The notes beneath the pieces are model-generated. The model saw nothing but the letters and a program-made list of their open reading frames with translations, searched no databases and was not told where the DNA came from. This document shows positions 13,866 through 25,643 of a stretch of DNA of 64,000 nucleotides, piece by piece (within the stretch, counting starts at the first letter, position 1; each line of letters opens with the position of its first letter). This DNA is from Lysobacter sp. Root690. GTDB lineage: Bacteria > Pseudomonadota > Gammaproteobacteria > Xanthomonadales > Xanthomonadaceae. The DNA lies in assembly GCF_001427785.1 (NCBI RefSeq), contig NZ_LMHM01000013.1, positions 134,237 to 198,236 of the forward strand, in the 5' to 3' direction. Position numbers and translations under genes: made by a program.

Positions 13866-15026
13866 ATGCTCAGCACTCTGGCCATCGCCAACTACCGTTC
13901 CCTGCGCGAACTGGTCGTGCCGATGGGCCGGCTCAACGTGGTCACCGGCGCCAACGGCAGCGGCAAGTCGAACCTGTACCGCGCGCTGCGCCTGCTCGCC
14001 CAGACCGCGCAAGGCGGGGTGGTGACGGCGCTGGCGCGCGAGGGCGGGCTGGAGTCGACCCTGTGGGCCGGGCCGGAGACGATTTCGGCGCGGATGAAGC
14101 GCGGCGAGGTGCCGATCCAGGGCGGGCCGCGCAACGCGCCGGTGTCGCTGCGGCTGGGGTTCGCCGGCGACGAATACGGCTATGCGATCGACCTGGGCCT
14201 GCCGATACCTAGCCGGTCGATGTTTGCGCACGATCCGGAGATCAAGCGCGAGGTGATCTGGAGCGGGCCGTTCCTGCGCGCGTCCAATCTGCTGGTCGAC
14301 CGGCGCGGGCCTATGGCGCGGGTGCGCGAGGGCCGCGGCTGGCGGGTCGCCGCCGAACACCTGAGCGCGTTCGACAGCGTGTTCGCCCAGATCGCCGACC
14401 CGCGCGCCGCGCCGGAGGTGCTGAGCCTGCGCGAAACCATCCGCGGCTGGCGCTTCTACGATCACTTCCGCAGCGACGCGCAGGCGCCGGCGCGGCAGCC
14501 GCAACTGGGCACGCGCACGCCGGTGCTGAGCCACGACGGCCGCGATCTGGCCGCGGCCTGGCAGACCATCGTCGAGATCGGCGATCCGCGCGCACTGGCC
14601 GAGGCGGTCGACGATGCGTTTCCCGGCGCGCGGGTCGAGGTCGACGGCGAGGGCGGGCGGTTCTCGCTGCGCTTCTTCCAGCACGGCCTGCTGCGGCCGT
14701 TGTCGGCGGCGGAACTGTCCGACGGCACCTTGCGCTATCTGCTGTGGATCGCCGCCCTGCACACCCCGCGCCCGCCGCCGCTGATGGTGCTCAACGAACC
14801 CGAAACCAGCCTGCACCCGGACCTGCTGCCGGCGCTGGCGCGGCTGATCGCGCACGCTTCGCGCCGCACCCAGGTGTGGGTGGTCTCGCACGCCTCGCGC
14901 CTGATCAGCGCGCTGGAGGCCGAAGACGATTGCAACAGCCTGCATCTGGAAAAACAGTTCAGCCAGACCGGCATCGCCGGGCAGGGGATGCTGGATGCGC
15001 CGGCTTGGTATTGGCCGGAGCGTTAG
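13866..15026 (+). CDS. AAA-family ATPase of the RecF/OLD-like group
   Basis: A 386-residue ABC-type ATPase. It has Walker A GANGSGKSN (about 29-37), a SMC/RecF-style N-terminus (LSTLAIANYRSLRELVVPMGRLNVV), a signature-like LSAAELSDGTLRYL, Walker B LMVLNEPETSLHP and an H-loop VVSHASRLI. No TOPRIM nuclease domain follows, so it is shorter than OLD nucleases. Proteins of this AAA_21 type occur in phage defence and in DNA metabolism, but no partner effector is adjacent. It is divergent from the CsgG-like gene and followed by an inverted repeat. Confidence 0.88.
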   Translation: MLSTLAIANYRSLRELVVPMGRLNVVTGANGSGKSNLYRALRLLAQTAQGGVVTALAREGGLESTLWAGPETISARMKRGEVPIQGGPRNAPVSLRLGFAGDEYGYAIDLGLPIPSRSMFAHDPEIKREVIWSGPFLRASNLLVDRRGPMARVREGRGWRVAAEHLSAFDSVFAQIADPRAAPEVLSLRETIRGWRFYDHFRSDAQAPARQPQLGTRTPVLSHDGRDLAAAWQTIVEIGDPRALAEAVDDAFPGARVEVDGEGGRFSLRFFQHGLLRPLSAAELSDGTLRYLLWIAALHTPRPPPLMVLNEPETSLHPDLLPALARLIAHASRRTQVWVVSHASRLISALEAEDDCNSLHLEKQFSQTGIAGQGMLDAPAWYWPER

Positions 15027-18422: not shown

Positions 18423-19139
18423 GTGAGTATTTTGGTCGTTGACCGTTGGATGGACTTTAAGGGAACTTCGATTCACACACTCGATGCTGGCACTCAACAG
18501 GCATATGCCTATCTGAGTCCGCATATTTCGATCACCGCGGACGGCGCGCCCGACGCCTATCATCCACAAAACCTGGGGCTGGCGAACATCCGCCTGAGCG
18601 GCTGGCCCGATGGCGACTGGCGCAGCGCGCTGGTCGCCGATCCCAAGCGGCCCGGGCGGCCGCTGGAACAAAGCCGCGGTCGCAACGCCGGCTACTACAT
18701 CTCGATGACCGCATTGAGCGATCCCGAGCGCCCGCGCACCGATCCGCTGGCCTATGTCGACGCCGCGCGCATTCCGTATCTGACCTTGCCGTCGACGTTC
18801 CTGGAGATAAACGGCACCGGCGAGCTCGGCGATTTCGTCGTGGCCTATCACCCGCGAACGCGTCGCTGCAGTTACGGCGTGGTCGGCGACATCGGCTGGG
18901 ACAAGCCGCTGGGCGAGGTGTCGATCCGCATGGCCAGCGATCTGTCGGGGCAGACGGTGAACCTGGCCAGCGGCAAGGGCGCGCCGAGCGGGGAGACCTT
19001 GTACCTGGTGTTTCCCAGGTCGCGGCTGAGCCCGGCGTGGCCGATGGCGCCGGCGGCGATTCGCGCGCGTTGCGCGGCGCTGCTCAAGCCGTTGGGTGGA
19101 AGCGCGCGGTTGGAGCAGATCGCCGAAGCGCTGGCCTGA
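18423..19139 (+). CDS. GH75-type chitosanase-like protein, no signal peptide
   Basis: A 238-residue protein resembling glycoside hydrolase family 75 endo-chitosanases. The core reads DPLAYVDAARIPYLTLPSTF, then GELGDFVVAYHP, then YGVVGDIGWDKPLGEVS. In the family the catalytic aspartate and glutamate sit nine residues apart in a GD...GE motif, and here D156 and E165 keep exactly that spacing. It starts at GTG with a strong AAGGAGG. Unlike typical secreted GH75 enzymes it begins MSILVVDRWMDFKGTS, with no signal peptide or Tat motif, so export by another route or an intracellular role must be considered. The upstream region is unusually AT-rich. Activity on chitosan is inferred from family resemblance. 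Confidence 0.75.
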   Translation: MSILVVDRWMDFKGTSIHTLDAGTQQAYAYLSPHISITADGAPDAYHPQNLGLANIRLSGWPDGDWRSALVADPKRPGRPLEQSRGRNAGYYISMTALSDPERPRTDPLAYVDAARIPYLTLPSTFLEINGTGELGDFVVAYHPRTRRCSYGVVGDIGWDKPLGEVSIRMASDLSGQTVNLASGKGAPSGETLYLVFPRSRLSPAWPMAPAAIRARCAALLKPLGGSARLEQIAEALA

Positions 19140-19160
19140 GGCCGGCGCGGCGGCGTGCGC

Positions 19161-20240
19161 TCACGACCGCTCGACCTGCGGCTGGCCCGCCAGACTGAGG
19201 TCCAGCCGCACTAGGCGACCGAGCCGGTCGCGGCGCTGCGCGCGCAGATACCAATGCGCGCGCAGCCGATCGATGCGCACCGGCGGTAACACCGGTGCGC
19301 CCCACAGGCTCAATTCGTAATGGCGCTCGTGCAGCCAGTGCAGCAGCGCGTTGAAGCGCTCTTCGTCGTCGGGCAATTGCAGGTCCGCATCGCCGGGCCG
19401 GCGCGCGTCCGGATCGCCATCGTGGGCGAGCCAATGCGCGAAGCTGCCGTACAAGTCGAACGCGAAGCCGGCCTCGCGCATCGCCCGCAGTTCGTCGATG
19501 GTGCTGCGCAGGCAGATGGTTTCGGCGGTCTTCTGCATCACCAGCGCGTACTCGTGGCTGCGGTTGCTGGCGCTGGCGCCGGCGGGCAGCGGCGCGACAT
19601 CGCGCTCGTAGCACAGCAGGCGCTCTTCGCGCGCCACGAACATCGCGCCGAGCACCCGGCCCAGGTCCCAGGCCAGCGGCAGCATGCGGCCTTCGACCAC
19701 GAGGTTCTCGGCCATCGCGATGCAATAGCCGCCCTCGGGCAGGGCCGCGCGCACCGCGTAGAAGATGTCGCGCAGGCGTTCGAGGTAAGCGGCGTAGTCG
19801 CGTTCGAGATACAGCTGATCGCGGTTGCGCGGGCTGTCGTCCATGCTGGTCTGCGGCCAGCGGCAACCGAAGTAGGGCACGCTGGTCAGACACAGGTCGA
19901 TTGGGCCAGGGATCGCGGTCCGCGGCAGGCTGCCGATCGCGATCGGCGCATCGACGCCGTGCCGGCGCAGCCGTTCGCTCGCGAGCGCGGCGCGGTCGGG
20001 ATCGATCTCGACGCCGCAACCGGCGCGACCTTCCAGCGCCGCGGCCAGCAAGGTCGTGCCGAAGCCGCAGAACGGATCGAACACGGTCTGCCCGGGGCGG
20101 CTGAAGTGGCGCACGAACGGGCGCATCTGGTTGACCCAGCCGCAGTCGCGGCCGTCGAAGCCGTCGCGGCCGCGCAGATCCTCGGGCAAGCGATGTTCGG
20201 GCGGATCGGGCGACAGCACCCACCAACTACGGTTGTCCAT
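19161..20240 (-). CDS. DNA-methylase-like SAM-dependent methyltransferase
   Basis: A 359-residue methyltransferase. The SAM-binding motif I is FDPFCGFGTTLLAA (54-67), followed by VEIDPDRAA. The catalytic motif IV is TSVPYFGCR (119-127), matching the TSPPYFGLR of m4C/m6A DNA methylases but with valine for the second proline. Motif I precedes motif IV, the reverse of the usual beta-class order. The start at MDNRSWW overlaps the end of the radical SAM gene by 14 bases, indicating translational coupling. It is the last gene of the NAD-salvage cassette. No restriction endonuclease is adjacent. The substrate could be DNA or RNA. Confidence 0.82.
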   Translation of the reverse strand: MDNRSWWVLSPDPPEHRLPEDLRGRDGFDGRDCGWVNQMRPFVRHFSRPGQTVFDPFCGFGTTLLAAALEGRAGCGVEIDPDRAALASERLRRHGVDAPIAIGSLPRTAIPGPIDLCLTSVPYFGCRWPQTSMDDSPRNRDQLYLERDYAAYLERLRDIFYAVRAALPEGGYCIAMAENLVVEGRMLPLAWDLGRVLGAMFVAREERLLCYERDVAPLPAGASASNRSHEYALVMQKTAETICLRSTIDELRAMREAGFAFDLYGSFAHWLAHDGDPDARRPGDADLQLPDDEERFNALLHWLHERHYELSLWGAPVLPPVRIDRLRAHWYLRAQRRDRLGRLVRLDLSLAGQPQVERS

Positions 20241-21375
20241 GCATCGCTCCGTGAGTCTTGTCCCAGAGAATGTCGCGGTCGGGTTGCCAACCGGCGCACA
20301 GACGGCCGTCGGCATGGAACACCAGTTTGTAGATGTCGCCGCTGGCGTGGCGGCGATGCATCGCGCTGTAGTCGGAGGATTCGAACACCACCTCCAGGCC
20401 GCTGCTTTCGTCGCGCAGGCGCAGGTTCCAGAAGTAATAGCCTTCAGTGATCTGCAGCGCGCGCAGGCGCGGCCACCAGTGCGCGGCCATGCAATCGCCG
20501 AGCACCTGTTCGATCGCGACGCGTTCGCTGTCGACGTAACGGCGGGTGCCGTTGTCGCGGTATCCCTCGCCCAGGCGCGAGAACTCGCGGAAGATCACCG
20601 TGCCGGCGCCGCATTGCTTCGCCCAGTCGAGGTAGGCGGCGACGCCGTGCGCATCGGCGACGCCGTCGCGTTGCAGGATGCAGACCTGGCGCAGCGGCAA
20701 CGCGGCCGAGATCGCGCGCGCGACCGCTTCGAACGCGGCGTTGTCGGCGACCGCTTCGCCGCCGCGAAACCGCATGATGCGCTGGTTGCGCAGCGGGTCG
20801 GGGTGATGCCGCGACAGTTCGACCCAGGACAGGCCGAAGTCTTGCAGCGCGGCGATCAGTTCCTCGCCGCGACCGCGCGCGAAGCCGGCGCCGTTGCTGT
20901 ACAGCACTCGATCCTGGGCGATGACGCCGTCGCGTTCGGCTTGTTGCAAGGTCTGCAGCAGTCGCAGGAACCAATCTTCGTCGTCGCTGGATTCCAGGCC
21001 CGACAGCGACCACGACAGCGGCAGACCGCGCAGTTGCGCCAATGCCTGCTTCAGGGTGTCGAAATAATCGTTGGCCGGACGCAAGGTCTGCGCCATCGTG
21101 CCGCCTTCGAGCGGGCGCAGGGTTTCCGAACAGAAGCGACAACGCGCCGAGCATGCGCGCACCGAGGCGTACGGGGTGAAGGTGATGGGTTGGGCGAAGC
21201 GGTAGCGTCGGCCGCTCACGCTGTGCGGATGCCAGCGGGTGGCGTCGTGCTCGACCGGCGCGCGGCGCGCGAGTTGCGGCGTGCTCGCGCGCAGGCGTTC
21301 GAACAATGAGGAGGCTGCGCTCAGGGGCAGGGTCGCCGGGTCTGCGGCGGCTAGCCCTTCGATGGGGGCTTGCAT
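20227..21375 (-). CDS. Radical SAM protein of unknown function
   Basis: A 382-residue radical SAM enzyme. The [4Fe-4S] ligands are C75, C79 and C82 in ACSARCRFCSE, preceded by ITFTPYASV as in the radical SAM barrel. Further barrel elements include SLSGLESSDDEDW, RVLYSNGAGF and VELSRHHPD. The C-terminus (WNLRLRDESSGLEVVFESSDYSAM, YKLVFHADGRLCAGW) has no auxiliary cluster motif. I do not recognise the product family. It lies between the NAMPT gene, after a 207-base spacer with two REP hairpins, and the overlapping methyltransferase gene. Coupling to the methyltransferase suggests joint action on one substrate. Confidence 0.82.
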   Translation of the reverse strand: MQAPIEGLAAADPATLPLSAASSLFERLRASTPQLARRAPVEHDATRWHPHSVSGRRYRFAQPITFTPYASVRACSARCRFCSETLRPLEGGTMAQTLRPANDYFDTLKQALAQLRGLPLSWSLSGLESSDDEDWFLRLLQTLQQAERDGVIAQDRVLYSNGAGFARGRGEELIAALQDFGLSWVELSRHHPDPLRNQRIMRFRGGEAVADNAAFEAVARAISAALPLRQVCILQRDGVADAHGVAAYLDWAKQCGAGTVIFREFSRLGEGYRDNGTRRYVDSERVAIEQVLGDCMAAHWWPRLRALQITEGYYFWNLRLRDESSGLEVVFESSDYSAMHRRHASGDIYKLVFHADGRLCAGWQPDRDILWDKTHGAMHGQP

Positions 21376-21436
21376 GGTGGTTTCCGATGATGGTTGGGTG
21401 GGGCGACAGAGCCGAAGCATTCGCGTCTTCGACGCT

Positions 21437-21571
21437 CATCCCCTCACCCTGGCCCTCTCCCGCAAGCGGGAGAGGGAACCGGTTGCGTTGCTATCCGATA
21501 ACTGCGTCGTTCCCGATCGCATCGCCCTTGGCCCCTCTCCCGTGCAACGGGAGAGGGGTTGGGGTGAGGGC
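21437..21571. repeat. REP doublet (CCCTCTCCCGC family)
   Basis: Two copies of a CCCTCACCCTGGCCCTCTCCCG-type hairpin, at 21437-21477 and inverted at 21527-21571, about 50 bases apart. They fill the gap between the NAMPT and radical SAM genes and could attenuate or stabilise the cassette transcript. Confidence 0.85.
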
Positions 21572-21582
21572 CGCGATCAAGA

Positions 21583-23007
21583 TCAAAGCCGGGTAGCGTT
21601 AGCCAACTCGCGCACCTGCGCGAAGGTCCAGTCGTTGACGATCCTGCCGTCCTCCCACACCGTCACCATCGCGTCGTCGAAGCCCAGCGGCTTGACCGCT
21701 TCTTCCAGCGACGCGGCTTCCGGCGGCACCGGCACGGTCTTGAAGTGACCGTATTCGCGATGGCGCAGCAGGGTCATGCGGCCGCGCTTGCTCGACTTGC
21801 CCTTGTCGGTGACCGGGTCTTTGTACACGTCGATCCATTCGCCGTTGACCCGCGCCGCCGAACACTTGAGCGCGAACTTCTGGGTGTCGCGATCCAGGCG
21901 CTGCAACAGCGCGCCGCCCATGCCGAAGGCGAGGTTGTCGGTGGCGTAGCCGTAGCTGGTGATGCGTTCGAGGATCGCGCGGATGCTGGTCGGGTTGATG
22001 CCGTCGCCCTGGATCACGCGGACGTGGTTCAACACCTTGAAGCCCTTGCTGTTGACGGTGTGGCCGAAGGCTTCGTCGAGCATGGTCACGCACTGGTGCA
22101 CTACGTCGACCGGATCGCCGGAGTCCGGACGCACCACCAAGGTCGCGCCCGAGGCGATCACTTCCTCGCGCAAGGTCTTGCCCCAGTGTTCGCGGATCGC
22201 GTGGAAGATGTCGTAGCTGTCGGACACCACCGCGACGATCGCGCCGGGCTTGCCGAACTGGGTCAGCATGTTGCGGTACGCATCGACCTCGTGCTCGCGG
22301 CCCCAACTGGTGATGGTGCTGTGCTCGGCGGCCGGGATCGAGAAACCCGCCATCGGCTCGTGGTAGTAGCGCTTGGCCAGCAACAGGCCCGAAACCGTGT
22401 CGGTGCCGAGGAAGTTGACCAGGTGCGCGGCGCCGCCGAATGCCGCCGATTCGGTGCTGGACACGCCGCGCGCGCCGAAGTCGTGCAGCTTGAACGGCAA
22501 CTGGCCTTCGGGATCGTCGCTGGTGCGTTCCAGGAACTGGCGGATCGTCTGCTTGGCATGCCAGCTGATCGTCGCCACCGTCACCGGATACCACAGCCGC
22601 AGCAGCAAGGTTTCCAGATACGACGGCACCCAATACGCGTCCGGGTCGGTCGATTCGATCGTCACCAAGGCCTGGTGCGTCGGCACCACCGTGCCTTCGG
22701 GCACGGCGCGGATCCGGATCGGCATCAGCCCGCCATGGCGATCGACGATGTAGCGCCAACCGGTTTCGTTGAACGGCTCGCCATGCGCGGCGAACAGGTC
22801 GCGCGCTTCGTCGATGTCGGCGTGGGTGATCGGCTTGGCCAGGTATTCCTTGAGGATCGCCTGCAGGCCGAAGAACACGGTGCGGTCGTGCACGCCGCCG
22901 CGCGATTCGACGTAGAAGAACGTCGCATCGGTGCCGGGCGGGTATTGCAGCCAGTGGCTGGCTTTATAGCTGTCGGTGTTGAGCAGCAGGTTGTCGAGGC
23001 ATTGCAT
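21583..23007 (-). CDS. nadV: Nicotinamide phosphoribosyltransferase
   Basis: Makes nicotinamide mononucleotide from nicotinamide and PRPP, the first step of two-step NAD salvage. It is 474 residues, the normal NAMPT length. Diagnostic blocks are HDFGARGVSSTES (175-187), LGTDTV (200-205), PAAEHSTI with the catalytic-type histidine H229, RPDSGDP (293-299) and GMGGALLQ. It follows the NMN adenylyltransferase/Nudix gene by 75 bases on the same strand, so the two pathway enzymes are co-transcribed. NadV-type salvage is scattered in bacteria and large phages, so transfer in the lineage is plausible. Confidence 0.95.
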   Translation of the reverse strand: MQCLDNLLLNTDSYKASHWLQYPPGTDATFFYVESRGGVHDRTVFFGLQAILKEYLAKPITHADIDEARDLFAAHGEPFNETGWRYIVDRHGGLMPIRIRAVPEGTVVPTHQALVTIESTDPDAYWVPSYLETLLLRLWYPVTVATISWHAKQTIRQFLERTSDDPEGQLPFKLHDFGARGVSSTESAAFGGAAHLVNFLGTDTVSGLLLAKRYYHEPMAGFSIPAAEHSTITSWGREHEVDAYRNMLTQFGKPGAIVAVVSDSYDIFHAIREHWGKTLREEVIASGATLVVRPDSGDPVDVVHQCVTMLDEAFGHTVNSKGFKVLNHVRVIQGDGINPTSIRAILERITSYGYATDNLAFGMGGALLQRLDRDTQKFALKCSAARVNGEWIDVYKDPVTDKGKSSKRGRMTLLRHREYGHFKTVPVPPEAASLEEAVKPLGFDDAMVTVWEDGRIVNDWTFAQVRELANATRL

Positions 23008-23082
23008 GACGGGAAGCTCCTTCGCGTCTGGGGTAAGCCGGCGGTCTGTCCGCCGGCGGAGGGCCGGGCGGTGCGTTTGCGC

Positions 23083-24138
23083 TTAGCCGCGGCCGAGAAA
23101 GAATTCGAGGATGTGCAGATGGTCTTCGAACAGTTGCGGGCCCATTTCCAGCGCCTCGCTGACCGCGATCCAGCGCGCCTTGTCGGCATCGTCGCCGCCG
23201 CGCACCGGCGGCAATTCGCCGGCGGGGAATTCGAAGTGGAAGGCGTGGGTGATGGTGCGTCCGCGCGCGCTGCGTTCGGGATGATCGAATACGTGCTCGC
23301 CCTTGATCGAGCCCTTGAGCACCGGCAGCGGCAGCTTGAGCCGGGTTTCCTCGCGCAGCTCGCGCAGGCAGGCTTCCAGCAGGCTTTCGTGCTGGCCGAC
23401 GAAACCGCCCGGCAGCGCCCACAGGCCCTTGCCCGGTTCAGCGCGACGGCGCACCAGCAGCACGTGGCCGGAATGCACGATCACCGCGTCGGTGGTAACG
23501 AAGGTCGGCGGGTAGGGCGCATCGCTCCAGGCCGCGCGGTATTGTTCGATGAACTGATACTCGGCGACCAACTGGGTGAACGCCGGCGAACTTTTACGGA
23601 ATGCTTCGAGCATGTCGAACACCGGCCCGGGCACGTTGGCGCGGATCAGCATCAGGCCGCCGTGGCTGTCGATCTGGTTGGCTTCGAACAGGAAGCGGCG
23701 CAGCTCGGTGGCCGACAGGGTGGCGGTGTGGCTGACGTCGACCAGCGGCCACTGCGGAAACTCGCGCAGGTAGTAGCTGGAGGCGTCCTTGTCCATGCCG
23801 ATCAGGCCGATGCGCGCTTCGGCATCGCCGCCGTCGGCGCGCACCGCCTCGGCGACCGCGCGCTGGACGTTGGCGATCCACAGGCTCTCGTTGTAGAGGT
23901 GATCGCGCAGCGGACGCACGATCAGCCGGTCGGCGGCATCGTTCAACGCGGCCTGGATCATCACCGCGCGCTCGGCGACGGTGAACGGGTTCTTGGTGGT
24001 GCGAGGGGTGTCGGCGGAACCGACCAGGAAGATGACTTTGGACGCCTTGGCCAGAGCGTGGCGGGCGACGGCGGCATGGCCGTTGTGGAACGGCTCGAAG
24101 CGGCCAATGAAAACCAGGTAATCGAATTCGATTGCCAT
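23083..24138 (-). CDS. Bifunctional NMN adenylyltransferase / Nudix hydrolase
   Basis: A 351-residue fusion. Residues 1-180 are a NadM-type nucleotidyltransferase with GRFEPFHNGH (12-21) and LSATELRR (141-148), forming NAD from NMN and ATP. Residues about 210-351 are a Nudix domain with a complete Nudix box (GFVGQHE...RELREE, 245-264), of the kind that hydrolyses ADP-ribose or related nucleotides. Together with the downstream NAMPT gene it converts nicotinamide to NAD while clearing ADP-ribose. It is the first gene of the four-gene cassette and starts after a GAGG ribosome site. Confidence 0.94.
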   Translation of the reverse strand: MAIEFDYLVFIGRFEPFHNGHAAVARHALAKASKVIFLVGSADTPRTTKNPFTVAERAVMIQAALNDAADRLIVRPLRDHLYNESLWIANVQRAVAEAVRADGGDAEARIGLIGMDKDASSYYLREFPQWPLVDVSHTATLSATELRRFLFEANQIDSHGGLMLIRANVPGPVFDMLEAFRKSSPAFTQLVAEYQFIEQYRAAWSDAPYPPTFVTTDAVIVHSGHVLLVRRRAEPGKGLWALPGGFVGQHESLLEACLRELREETRLKLPLPVLKGSIKGEHVFDHPERSARGRTITHAFHFEFPAGELPPVRGGDDADKARWIAVSEALEMGPQLFEDHLHILEFFLGRG

Positions 24139-24608
24139 GAGAATCCCTCACGGAGTAGTTGGTCGCCATCGGTCTGTCCGGTGGCGTATGGCGAATGCTA
24201 CGCCGATGGGATGCGCCGTCAAGTGCCAACCGCAGCGACGTACGCAAGCGTCTGAATCCGAAGCCGCGGCGGGGCGGGCTTTGAGCATCGCAGGCTTCGG
24301 ATCAAAGGCAGCGGAGTTCTTTCGCTTCGGTTGGTGGCGTGGTATCCCACCTCTTCGAGTGGTCGCGGCTCGCGCCACTCCCACAGGGGCTTGCGTGCGG
24401 CATACGTCGCCAGCCGCGACGACGATGGCAATCCCCCTGTAGGAGCGACGTAAGTCGCGACCGCGCCCCATCCACCGACGGCGATACGATCCGACAGCGA
24501 CGCGCCCTCGATGTCCGCAGCTCATCACCGCAGAACATTCGCGCAGCCACCGCTCCCGGCCACAGCCCCGACGCATACAATCGGCTGAACCAGGCAGGGA
24601 GGCACTAC
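24139..24608. other. Intergenic region with a REP doublet
   Basis: No gene is seen. It separates the divergent NAD-salvage cassette and the membrane-protein gene at 24609, so both promoters should lie here, but I cannot place -35/-10 boxes with confidence. Two inverted REP copies sit at about 24361-24389 and 24434-24464. Confidence 0.6.
24361..24464. repeat. REP doublet (GTAGGAGCGGC family)
   Basis: Inverted pair: GGTCGCGGCTCGCGCCACTC at 24361 and CTGTAGGAGCGACGTAAGTC near 24437, about 45 bases apart. The same doublet arrangement recurs at 40081, 43398 and 53897. Confidence 0.82.
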
Positions 24609-25643
24609 ATGACGATGATCGTTCCGGAATTCTGGGCGGAGGCCCGGATCAGCGAACAGTTCGGCCGTGATCACGTGTCCGGGCGACGTTCGCTCACGGT
24701 GCGTCGCTTCGGGTGGTCCGATCTCAGCCTCGCCGACGCGCAAGCGATGGCCGATGCGCGAGTACGCGAGGCCTTCGATCGGATCCTCGCCGGCACCAGC
24801 CTGCCCAAGCGCGATCCGCGCGTGCCCTACGACGCCGAAGGCCTACCGATCCGCGAACAGATCGTCGAACGCGACGGCGATATCGTCATCACCCGCAACA
24901 GCTACGGCGCGCGCTGCCTCAACTCGCCGAATGTGCTGTTCGCCGACGTCGATTTCGACCAGCCGAAATCGGCCTGGAACAAGTACTACTTTGTTTCGTC
25001 GCTGGCGGCGGCGCTGATCGCGGGGGTGGTGTCGCGCAATCTGGGAGTGTTCGTGCTGAGCTGGATCTTCGCCACCGGCATCGCCATCGCGCTGGCCCAG
25101 GCGCACGGCCGCGCGCGCCATCGCGCCGACGGGGGTCCCGAAGGCCGCGCGCGCAGACGCATCGACGCCTTCATCGCCGCGCATCCGGACTGGCATCTGC
25201 GTCTGTATCGCACACCGAACGGCTTTCGCCTGCTGGCGATGCACCAAGTGTTCGATCCGAACGATCCGGCGGTGGTGGCGTTCTTCGAAGCGATCGGCGC
25301 CGATGCGTATTACGCGCTGCTGTGTCGTAGCCAGCATTGCTTCCGCGCGCGGGTCAGCCCGAAACCGTGGCGCATCGGCGATCGGGCGCGCTCGCGAGCC
25401 CGCGCCGGCGTCGCTTCGAACAGGCCGGACTCGATGCCCAAAGCCGGCGTCTGGCCGATCGCCGCCGATCGCATTCACGAGCGCGAACGCTGGGTCGAGG
25501 ACTACGAGCGCAAGTCGGTGGGCTATGCGTCGTGTCGTTTCGTCGAAGCGCTGGGCAGCCGCGATTACGTCATGGCGGCCCAGGCGGTGCAGCGATTGCA
25601 TGACGCTCTGTGCCGATCCGATACGACCTTGCCGTTGGCCTGA
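24609..25643 (+). CDS. Membrane-anchored protein of unknown function
   Basis: A 344-residue protein starting at the ATG after GGCAGGGAGG. The N-terminal 120 residues are soluble (TVRRFGWSDLSLADAQAMADARVREAFDRIL). A pair of hydrophobic segments follows (about 126-142 and 146-163), then a basic cytoplasmic-like region and a C-terminal domain (FIAAHPDWHLRLYRTPNGFRLLAMHQVFDPND). I do not recognise the family. The next gene, also with a membrane anchor, begins 72 bases downstream and may be co-transcribed. Confidence 0.75.
   Translation: MTMIVPEFWAEARISEQFGRDHVSGRRSLTVRRFGWSDLSLADAQAMADARVREAFDRILAGTSLPKRDPRVPYDAEGLPIREQIVERDGDIVITRNSYGARCLNSPNVLFADVDFDQPKSAWNKYYFVSSLAAALIAGVVSRNLGVFVLSWIFATGIAIALAQAHGRARHRADGGPEGRARRRIDAFIAAHPDWHLRLYRTPNGFRLLAMHQVFDPNDPAVVAFFEAIGADAYYALLCRSQHCFRARVSPKPWRIGDRARSRARAGVASNRPDSMPKAGVWPIAADRIHERERWVEDYERKSVGYASCRFVEALGSRDYVMAAQAVQRLHDALCRSDTTLPLA

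Follow-up and report, generated by a model that had tools for sequence, protein, structure and literature searches.

Introduction

Among the described systems closest to the locus reported here is the NadV/NadM pair known from Xanthomonas campestris (Xcc) and from phage, in which a NadV-type nicotinamide phosphoribosyltransferase (NAMPT) accompanies a fusion of nicotinamide mononucleotide (NMN) adenylyltransferase with an ADP-ribose-type Nudix domain (NadM/Nudix, hereafter NMNAT/Nudix or NMNAT). The NrtR regulon of nicotinamide adenine dinucleotide (NAD) metabolism was reportedly described by Rodionov et al. in 2008, and the NrtR family senses ADP-ribose. Among radical S-adenosylmethionine (SAM) enzymes, MoaA (GTP 3',8-cyclase) has three C-terminal Cys ligands of a second [4Fe-4S] cluster. 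Here we analyzed a 64,000-nucleotide stretch of Lysobacter sp. Root690 (contig NZ_LMHM01000013.1, positions 134,237 to 198,236), referred to as the window, in which such a NAD salvage pair is followed by genes for a MoaA-like radical SAM protein (RS) and for a protein (MT) that joins an N-methyltransferase (MTase) half to a nucleotidyltransferase-like (NTase-like) domain.

A first-pass annotation, made from the letters of the window, had proposed that an RS and methyltransferase pair linked to NAD salvage was undescribed. This was borne out: we found no description of such a pair in the open-access papers searched, none of which combines NrtR with a radical SAM protein, or NAMPT with both a radical SAM protein and a nucleotidyltransferase; two pair radical SAM with NAMPT and two pair it with NadM. 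Our results indicate that RS-MT is very probably tied functionally to NAD metabolism. We propose, with a probability of roughly 45%, that RS and MT act together as a single functional module, in which a nucleotide-tailoring pair governed by NAD status is appended to NAD salvage.

Results

RS-MT recurs beside different NAD genes

A scan of species genomes matched 150 stretches (86 relatives), of which the best 80 were taken; these represent 79 loci and are not a census. RS-MT was present in Lysobacter, Xanthomonas, Paraburkholderia, Burkholderia, Variovorax, Xenophilus, Herbaspirillum, Massilia, Duganella, Pseudoduganella, Alcanivorax, Pseudomonas and Tahibacter, among others. MT directly followed RS in 78 of the 79 loci, with a median overlap of 8 nt at the junction and a largest gap of 8 nt (five of the 78 values, from L062, L066, L089, L090 and L094, are overstated overlaps in which the RS match extended past the stop).

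NAD genes or an NrtR-family regulator adjoined RS-MT in 52/79 loci, in five arrangements. The order NMNAT-NAMPT-RS-MT was found in 40 loci, and in two Alcanivorax loci NrtR was divergent from NMNAT-RS-MT-NAMPT. Five others (four Herbaspirillum and one Burkholderiales metagenome-assembled genome, MAG) carried PncA-like-PncB-NadE-NMNAT-RS-MT, preceded in all five by a divergent NrtR. The one PncB and the one NadE scanned scored above their respective cut-offs; the PncA-like protein was weakly nicotinamidase-like (22 bits vs a cut-off of 174). NrtR was divergent from RS-MT itself in four loci (Massilia, Duganella and two Pseudoduganella). In the last arrangement, that of MAG L123, NrtR, RS and MT lay on one strand, the NrtR stop being 11 nt before an RS ATG with AAGGAGG in between. 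No NAD gene or NrtR adjoined RS-MT in 23 loci, and four on short contigs were set aside, with RS at the contig end (L104, L110) or little DNA upstream of it (L064, L072).

The first-pass annotation had regarded the link as accidental if the pairing were confined to one genus. RS-MT with these neighbors extends well beyond Lysobacter, and the four-gene order, whose conservation that annotation had suggested checking, also recurs outside the genus. Since RS-MT recurs beside different NAD genes or an NrtR-type regulator, it probably performs an as yet undescribed NAD-connected reaction. The alternative is that these are housekeeping neighbors only, RS-MT hitch-hiking behind NAD genes. A single operon inherited in a lineage would account for the many Xanthomonas and Lysobacter rows, and some lineages carry RS-MT without NAD neighbors. 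However, five arrangements, two salvage routes and an NrtR whose exact box occurs at just one place in each genome (see below) speak against mere hitch-hiking, as does co-occurrence that persists when the genes are unlinked, and we consider it very unlikely. On an RS tree of 79 rows, built by a quick method and rooted at the midpoint solely for display, NAD-linked versus unlinked settings needed at least three changes and presence versus absence of NrtR needed one; L123 formed the first branch of the tree as rooted, on a long branch.

A candidate operator is shared by RS-MT and a NAD operon

In 12/79 loci, an NrtR-family regulator neighbored either RS-MT or the associated NAD operon. Seven of these 12 proteins were scanned with NCBIfam, and model NF050029 matched all seven with E values of 5e-80 to 2e-45, each below its cut-off; the remaining five were assigned by tblastn. 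By eye, the regulator of L123 (L123:9192-9872) presumably keeps an intact Nudix catalytic motif, unlike NrtR of the Massilia group.

A 21-bp box, TTAGTT-N7-TA-W-M-Y-TAA, was present between NrtR and the next gene, be it RS or the start of the NAD operon, in all nine betaproteobacterial NrtR loci. The 79 loci (1,569,063 bases) contained nine sites, all in NrtR intergenic DNA; the raw count was 11 because two palindromic sites matched on both strands. In 7/7 whole genomes the exact box occurred at one place, the RS-MT locus, and with one mismatch allowed totals were not above the reversed control in any of the seven. Given this single exact box per genome, RS-MT (with nrtR) would be the only exact-box target in the four Massilia/Duganella-group genomes. 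Nine of the 12 NrtR loci thus combine an adjacent regulator with a shared putative operator, as expected of an NrtR regulon, in lineages other than that of the window. The evidential weight of the candidate box lies in where it is found and in the fact that RS-MT and the NAD operon have it in common.

RS and NAMPT occur together among relatives

We searched 149 relatives for RS and obtained 24 matches, of which 21 were full-length; three weak ones (E ~1e-4) were not counted as RS. NAMPT was present in 38/149 relatives and in 21/21 of those with full-length RS (hypergeometric P 1.5e-15, kinship uncorrected). In one of them (G099), NAMPT and RS were both present on different contigs. Twenty RS loci were fetched. 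NMNAT-NAMPT-RS-MT with the same outer flanks was found in 14/14 same-genus loci, and the four genes were also together in 5/5 loci from other genus codes of the family, with none of the window's flanking genes detected there. The single fetched locus from elsewhere in the same order had RS-MT without the NAD pair.

We also fetched the NAMPT regions of 15 of the 17 NAMPT-positive genomes without full-length RS, plus that of G099. Neither RS nor MT lay near NAMPT in any of these 16 loci, and NMNAT adjoined NAMPT in 14. We picked 26 genomes from the 79 loci so that genera and settings were represented; 16 had NAMPT, adjacent in four and elsewhere in 12, and of the ten without it, eight carried NrtR next to RS or the associated NAD operon. 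Across 398 genomes sampled evenly from the phylum, the source genome among them, 16 had NAMPT and two had RS.

RS-MT might instead be a salvage or repair branch, through which atypical or damaged derivatives of NAD or pyridine become usable as substrates by NAMPT, PncB or NMNAT. The pair tracks two alternative routes (NAMPT, and PncA-like/PncB/NadE) together with an NrtR-family regulator, in line with such a role. Yet 17/38 NAMPT-positive relatives lack full-length RS, and a methylating, nucleotidyl-transferring partner suits synthesis better than degradation. A repair branch is therefore rather improbable in our view, and we retain the nucleotide-tailoring module as the preferred reading.

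RS is a radical SAM protein with a predicted MoaA-like fold

In an alignment of the window protein with 41 of 54 non-redundant proteins from the loci, the cluster motif CX3CX2C (C90, C94, C97) was invariant in 42/42 sequences. C247 was kept in the aligned set and C375 in 41/42. Six RS rows (L062, L066, L072, L089, L090, L094) ran past the stop (true stop at residue 358-380) and were omitted from this alignment and cut at the stop for the tree, from which L068, with an early stop in its reading frame, was left out.

RS scored 21.6 bits against Pfam PF04055, below the cut-off of 29.5, and no PDB sequence matched at E 1 (single sequence) or 0.1 (profile). Its membership of the radical SAM proteins is indicated by the CX3CX2C motif together with radical SAM fold matches. 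The AlphaFold2 (AF2) model of RS, with a predicted local distance difference test (pLDDT) score of 91.5, had MoaA (2fb2/1tv7) as its best Foldseek match in the PDB (template modeling, TM, score 0.53; 16% identity); the next matches were GDGT-MAS, SuiB and viperin. Sequence models of moaA matched 1/42 RS members (best E 5e-4; matches listed to E 0.1). RS relatives of 29-30% identity were found on two Embleya plasmids, one of which shows another context, with an aminotransferase-like gene (by eye).

MT joins an MTase half to a putative NTase domain

MT was aligned as the window protein with 45 of 60 non-redundant proteins from the loci. In the MTase half, D55, P56, F57, G59, E78, P122 and F124 were invariant in 46/46 proteins, and across the set motif I was followed by a motif IV that mostly reads N/S-V-P-Y-F, which we take to resemble the motif of amine N-methylases. 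The sole Pfam family listed, N6_N4_Mtase, covered the motif-I region only (model positions 171-219 of 221). NCBIfam matches were far under their cut-offs, and no target-recognition or THUMP domain was recognized in the alignments or the Pfam result. MT thus showed neither the full-model match nor the target-recognition region of a DNA N4/N6 methyltransferase.

In the second half, G265, D284, D286 and D347 were invariant in 46/46 proteins, a nucleotidyltransferase-like G...D.D...D set. In the AF2 model (mean pLDDT 92.4), the predicted strand and helix order of this half (DSSP, by eye) appears compatible with the alpha/beta palm of NTases, so that it carries the G[GS]...DxD...D pattern of the NTase superfamily in a palm predicted to be of the right kind. 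NTase-family matches of this half were sub-threshold, with E values of at least 0.013 (MdcG, NTP_transf_5 and DUF2204, but also unrelated families). Chain 5uvd gave E 0.3, and alignment to PcnB with hhalign yielded a weak match, with E 0.014 at a probability of 3% (an unrelated control gave E 0.32). Foldseek with the whole model returned mostly methyltransferases among the 50 best matches, Trm11 first.

The first-pass annotation had called MT DNA-methylase-like, which is incomplete, the NTase-like domain having been overlooked. We rejected MT as a DNA methylase only, because of that second domain. A broader version, in which RS-MT modifies tRNA or DNA and the NAD genes are linked to it by shared regulation, draws support from the motif-I match to N4/N6 DNA methylases and from a predicted fold like that of the Trm11 tRNA m2G10 methylases. 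It is nevertheless unlikely: neither of the domains that would recognize a nucleic acid was seen, the second domain is NTase-like, and NrtR control would be surprising for an RNA or DNA mark that is made constitutively. Tailoring of a nucleotide by RS and MT together remains the reading that we prefer.

On Hymenobacter plasmid pHsw1 (L046:7881-9496), an RS of 39% identity is followed by a stand-alone 171-aa NTase-like protein that aligns with the C-terminal half of MT (E 3e-17). Such an arrangement suggests that RS and NTase may be the core, to which the MTase was added. A Streptomyces plasmid (L195:5986-6660) carries a stand-alone relative (36%) of the MTase half only, with an ATP-grasp-like gene (by eye) upstream.

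Phage and defense genes

The first-pass annotation had also raised a defense or counter-defense island, for which we found no support: in the phage records, viral contigs and flanking genes covered, we saw neither carriage of RS-MT by phage nor a defense setting. NAMPT was found in 1,911 phage records and NMNAT/Nudix in 445. RS gave one distant match (24%) in 50,697 phage records, and a two-pattern scan of viral contigs gave 26 pattern matches and no confirmed RS; plasmids yielded three matches, at 29-38%. No PADLOC model fitted RS or NAMPT, and NMNAT matched one weak Nudix model. MT matched methyltransferase models of 31 families in its motif-I region, the 25 listed including type II, Mad2, orphan and PglX. 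When ten flanking window proteins were compared with defense models, an AAA ATPase alone matched.

A defense or counter-defense module would combine NAD replenishment with nucleic-acid or nucleotide modification. In its favor are the phage carriage of NAMPT and NMNAT/Nudix and the presence of viperin among the distant folds of RS. Two predicted viral proteins also resemble the RS model to about the same degree as MoaA (TM 0.52 and 0.51; 13-15% identity), and Vibrio phage phi-pp2, whose genome paper reportedly names both NadM and radical SAM (PMC3468402), encodes a distant MoaA/NifB/PqqE-family protein (TM 0.32 to the RS model). Against this stand the single distant RS match in phage records, the lack of a confirmed one in viral contigs, the three plasmid matches at 29-38%, the absence of a PADLOC model for RS or NAMPT and the single defense-like protein among ten flanking ones. 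We judge a defense role highly improbable, and the tailoring module is again preferred.

The distant phage match lies in Dulem virus 40 (L047:7219-9372), where its neighbors are a GNAT acetyltransferase and a second radical SAM gene. Xanthomonas phage LucasX (MW825358.1, 139407-141950) carries an NMNAT/Nudix-NAMPT pair in the window's order, 65-68% identical. The matching flank protein (13869-15026, 4 kb beyond MT) is a RecF/AAA-type ATPase like the HEC-01A and AriA defense ATPases (best 165.6 bits).

The locus in the window

The first-pass annotation had read the first two genes as a complete nicotinamide-to-NAD route, and both proteins proved to be full-length members of their own families; the route is ordinary. 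NMNAT/Nudix matched NCBIfam PRK05379.1-5 over residues 1-351 of 351 (710 bits, cut-off 354), contained Pfam CTP_transf_like and NUDIX within one protein, and had 2qjo as nearest solved chain (E 6e-99). NAMPT contained Pfam NAMPT_N and NAPRTase, and matched PRK09198.1, a model named nicotinate phosphoribosyltransferase (686 bits, cut-off 405), and PDB chain 7yqo best (833 bits).

The open reading frames confirmed four consecutive minus-strand genes (Table 1). The 14-base overlap of RS and MT noted previously holds if MT begins at the conserved MD.(R)SW ATG, 20240. RS more probably starts at MQAPIEGL, because the preceding residues are absent in aligned relatives; the NAMPT-RS gap would then be ~207 nt. 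This gap contains repetitive extragenic palindromic (REP) copies. The REP pattern had 114 matches in the source genome (reversed control pattern, 0) and was present in 3/40 other NAMPT-RS gaps, all three from Lysobacter. A consensus scan found no promoter in the REP gap, which is weak evidence. One promoter-like site lay upstream of NMNAT (0.7 expected by chance), three terminator-like sites were found against 3.5 expected, and Rfam gave no match at the gathering threshold over 19000-24700.

Table 1. Positions of the four genes and of the REP-containing gap in the window.
Feature	Interval	Strand	Details
NMN adenylyltransferase + ADP-ribose-type Nudix fusion (NadM/Nudix, NMNAT/Nudix)	24138-23083	minus	351 aa
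NAMPT, NadV-type nicotinamide phosphoribosyltransferase	23007-21583	minus	474 aa
NAMPT-RS gap	21421-21582		two convergent REP copies, 21443-21462 (+) and 21548-21568 (-)
RS, MoaA-like radical SAM protein	21420-20227	minus	397 aa; probable start 21375
MT, SAM-dependent N-methyltransferase (~residues 1-240) + nucleotidyltransferase-like domain (~240-350)	20240-19161	minus	359 aa

The flanking proteins at 18423-19139 and 24612-25643 had no Pfam or NCBIfam match at E 0.001 and were present in 9/14 and 14/14 same-genus loci, respectively.

Discussion

We infer the substrate and chemistry of RS-MT as follows. NAMPT and NMNAT would make NAD. The MoaA-like RS would act on a nucleotide by means of a 5'-deoxyadenosyl radical; methylation of an exocyclic or amide nitrogen would be the task of the MTase half of MT, and nucleotidyl transfer that of the NTase half. 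We would expect the outcome to be a pyridine or purine (di)nucleotide that has been methylated and tailored and that either derives from a NAD-type molecule or serves to repair one. Where NrtR is present, NAD turnover would switch the module on through ADP-ribose sensing. In its most specific form, which we hold only tentatively and as somewhat unlikely, the proposal is that RS and MT make or mend a new NAD-derived cofactor or signaling nucleotide. This would be a pyridine (di)nucleotide bearing radical-derived, N-methyl and nucleotidyl modifications, and a repressor that senses ADP-ribose would couple its synthesis to NAD turnover.

Several observations weigh against the module as proposed. 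The 23 loci without a NAD or NrtR neighbor (Variovorax, Burkholderia, the Xenophilus group, P. indica and MAG SCN 69-320) include genomes, those of V. beijingensis 502 and P. indica, that also lack NAMPT. The set-aside loci L064 and L072 have no NAD gene or NrtR in 2.1-2.4 kb of upstream DNA. In L110 (L110:3-2916, Burkholderia sp. Ac-20379, contig end) RS occurs without MT, an ftsI-like gene (by eye) standing instead, and in 17 kb of the Hymenobacter plasmid RS and NTase are accompanied by neither an MTase nor NAD genes. Salvage does not need RS, given the NAMPT-positive relatives that lack it. The putative NTase assignment draws on a motif and a predicted topology. As to regulation, the window's own genome has no NrtR, apart from NMNAT/Nudix itself and one weak match, and the box is lacking in two Alcanivorax NrtR loci and in L123. 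The box pattern was defined from the same sequences in which it was counted, so that shuffled sequence (mean 0.05 sites, largest 1) overstates its significance. Finally, NrtR-family proteins can also regulate sugar use, as is reported for BtAraR (PMC4666351).

NAD metabolism has been thought well mapped, and a conserved RS-MT pair points to a further, unknown reaction of NAD-type molecules. How the locus compares with known systems is as follows. The NadV/NadM pair of X. campestris and phage has the same NAMPT and NMNAT/Nudix members as the window, and the window's NAMPT/NMNAT order is that of relatives without RS-MT. A term search of the Xcc NAMPT paper (PMC10907753) gave no mention of an operon, gene cluster, radical or methyltransferase. 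Phages often carry NAMPT or NMNAT, yet no near relative of RS was found in phage records. As in the known NrtR regulon, an NrtR-family regulator also stands beside RS-MT or its NAD operon; RS-MT as a member of that regulon, or as its only exact-box target, was not found in the open-access literature. By fold, RS is matched best in the PDB by MoaA, with which it shares the CX3CX2C motif, whereas C375 alone is conserved in the C-terminal stretch of RS, where MoaA has the ligands of its second cluster. MT has in common with Trm11 and the N4-N6 amino-methyltransferases the order of motif I and motif IV and the N/S-V-P-Y-F motif, but, unlike them, carries a fused NTase-like domain.

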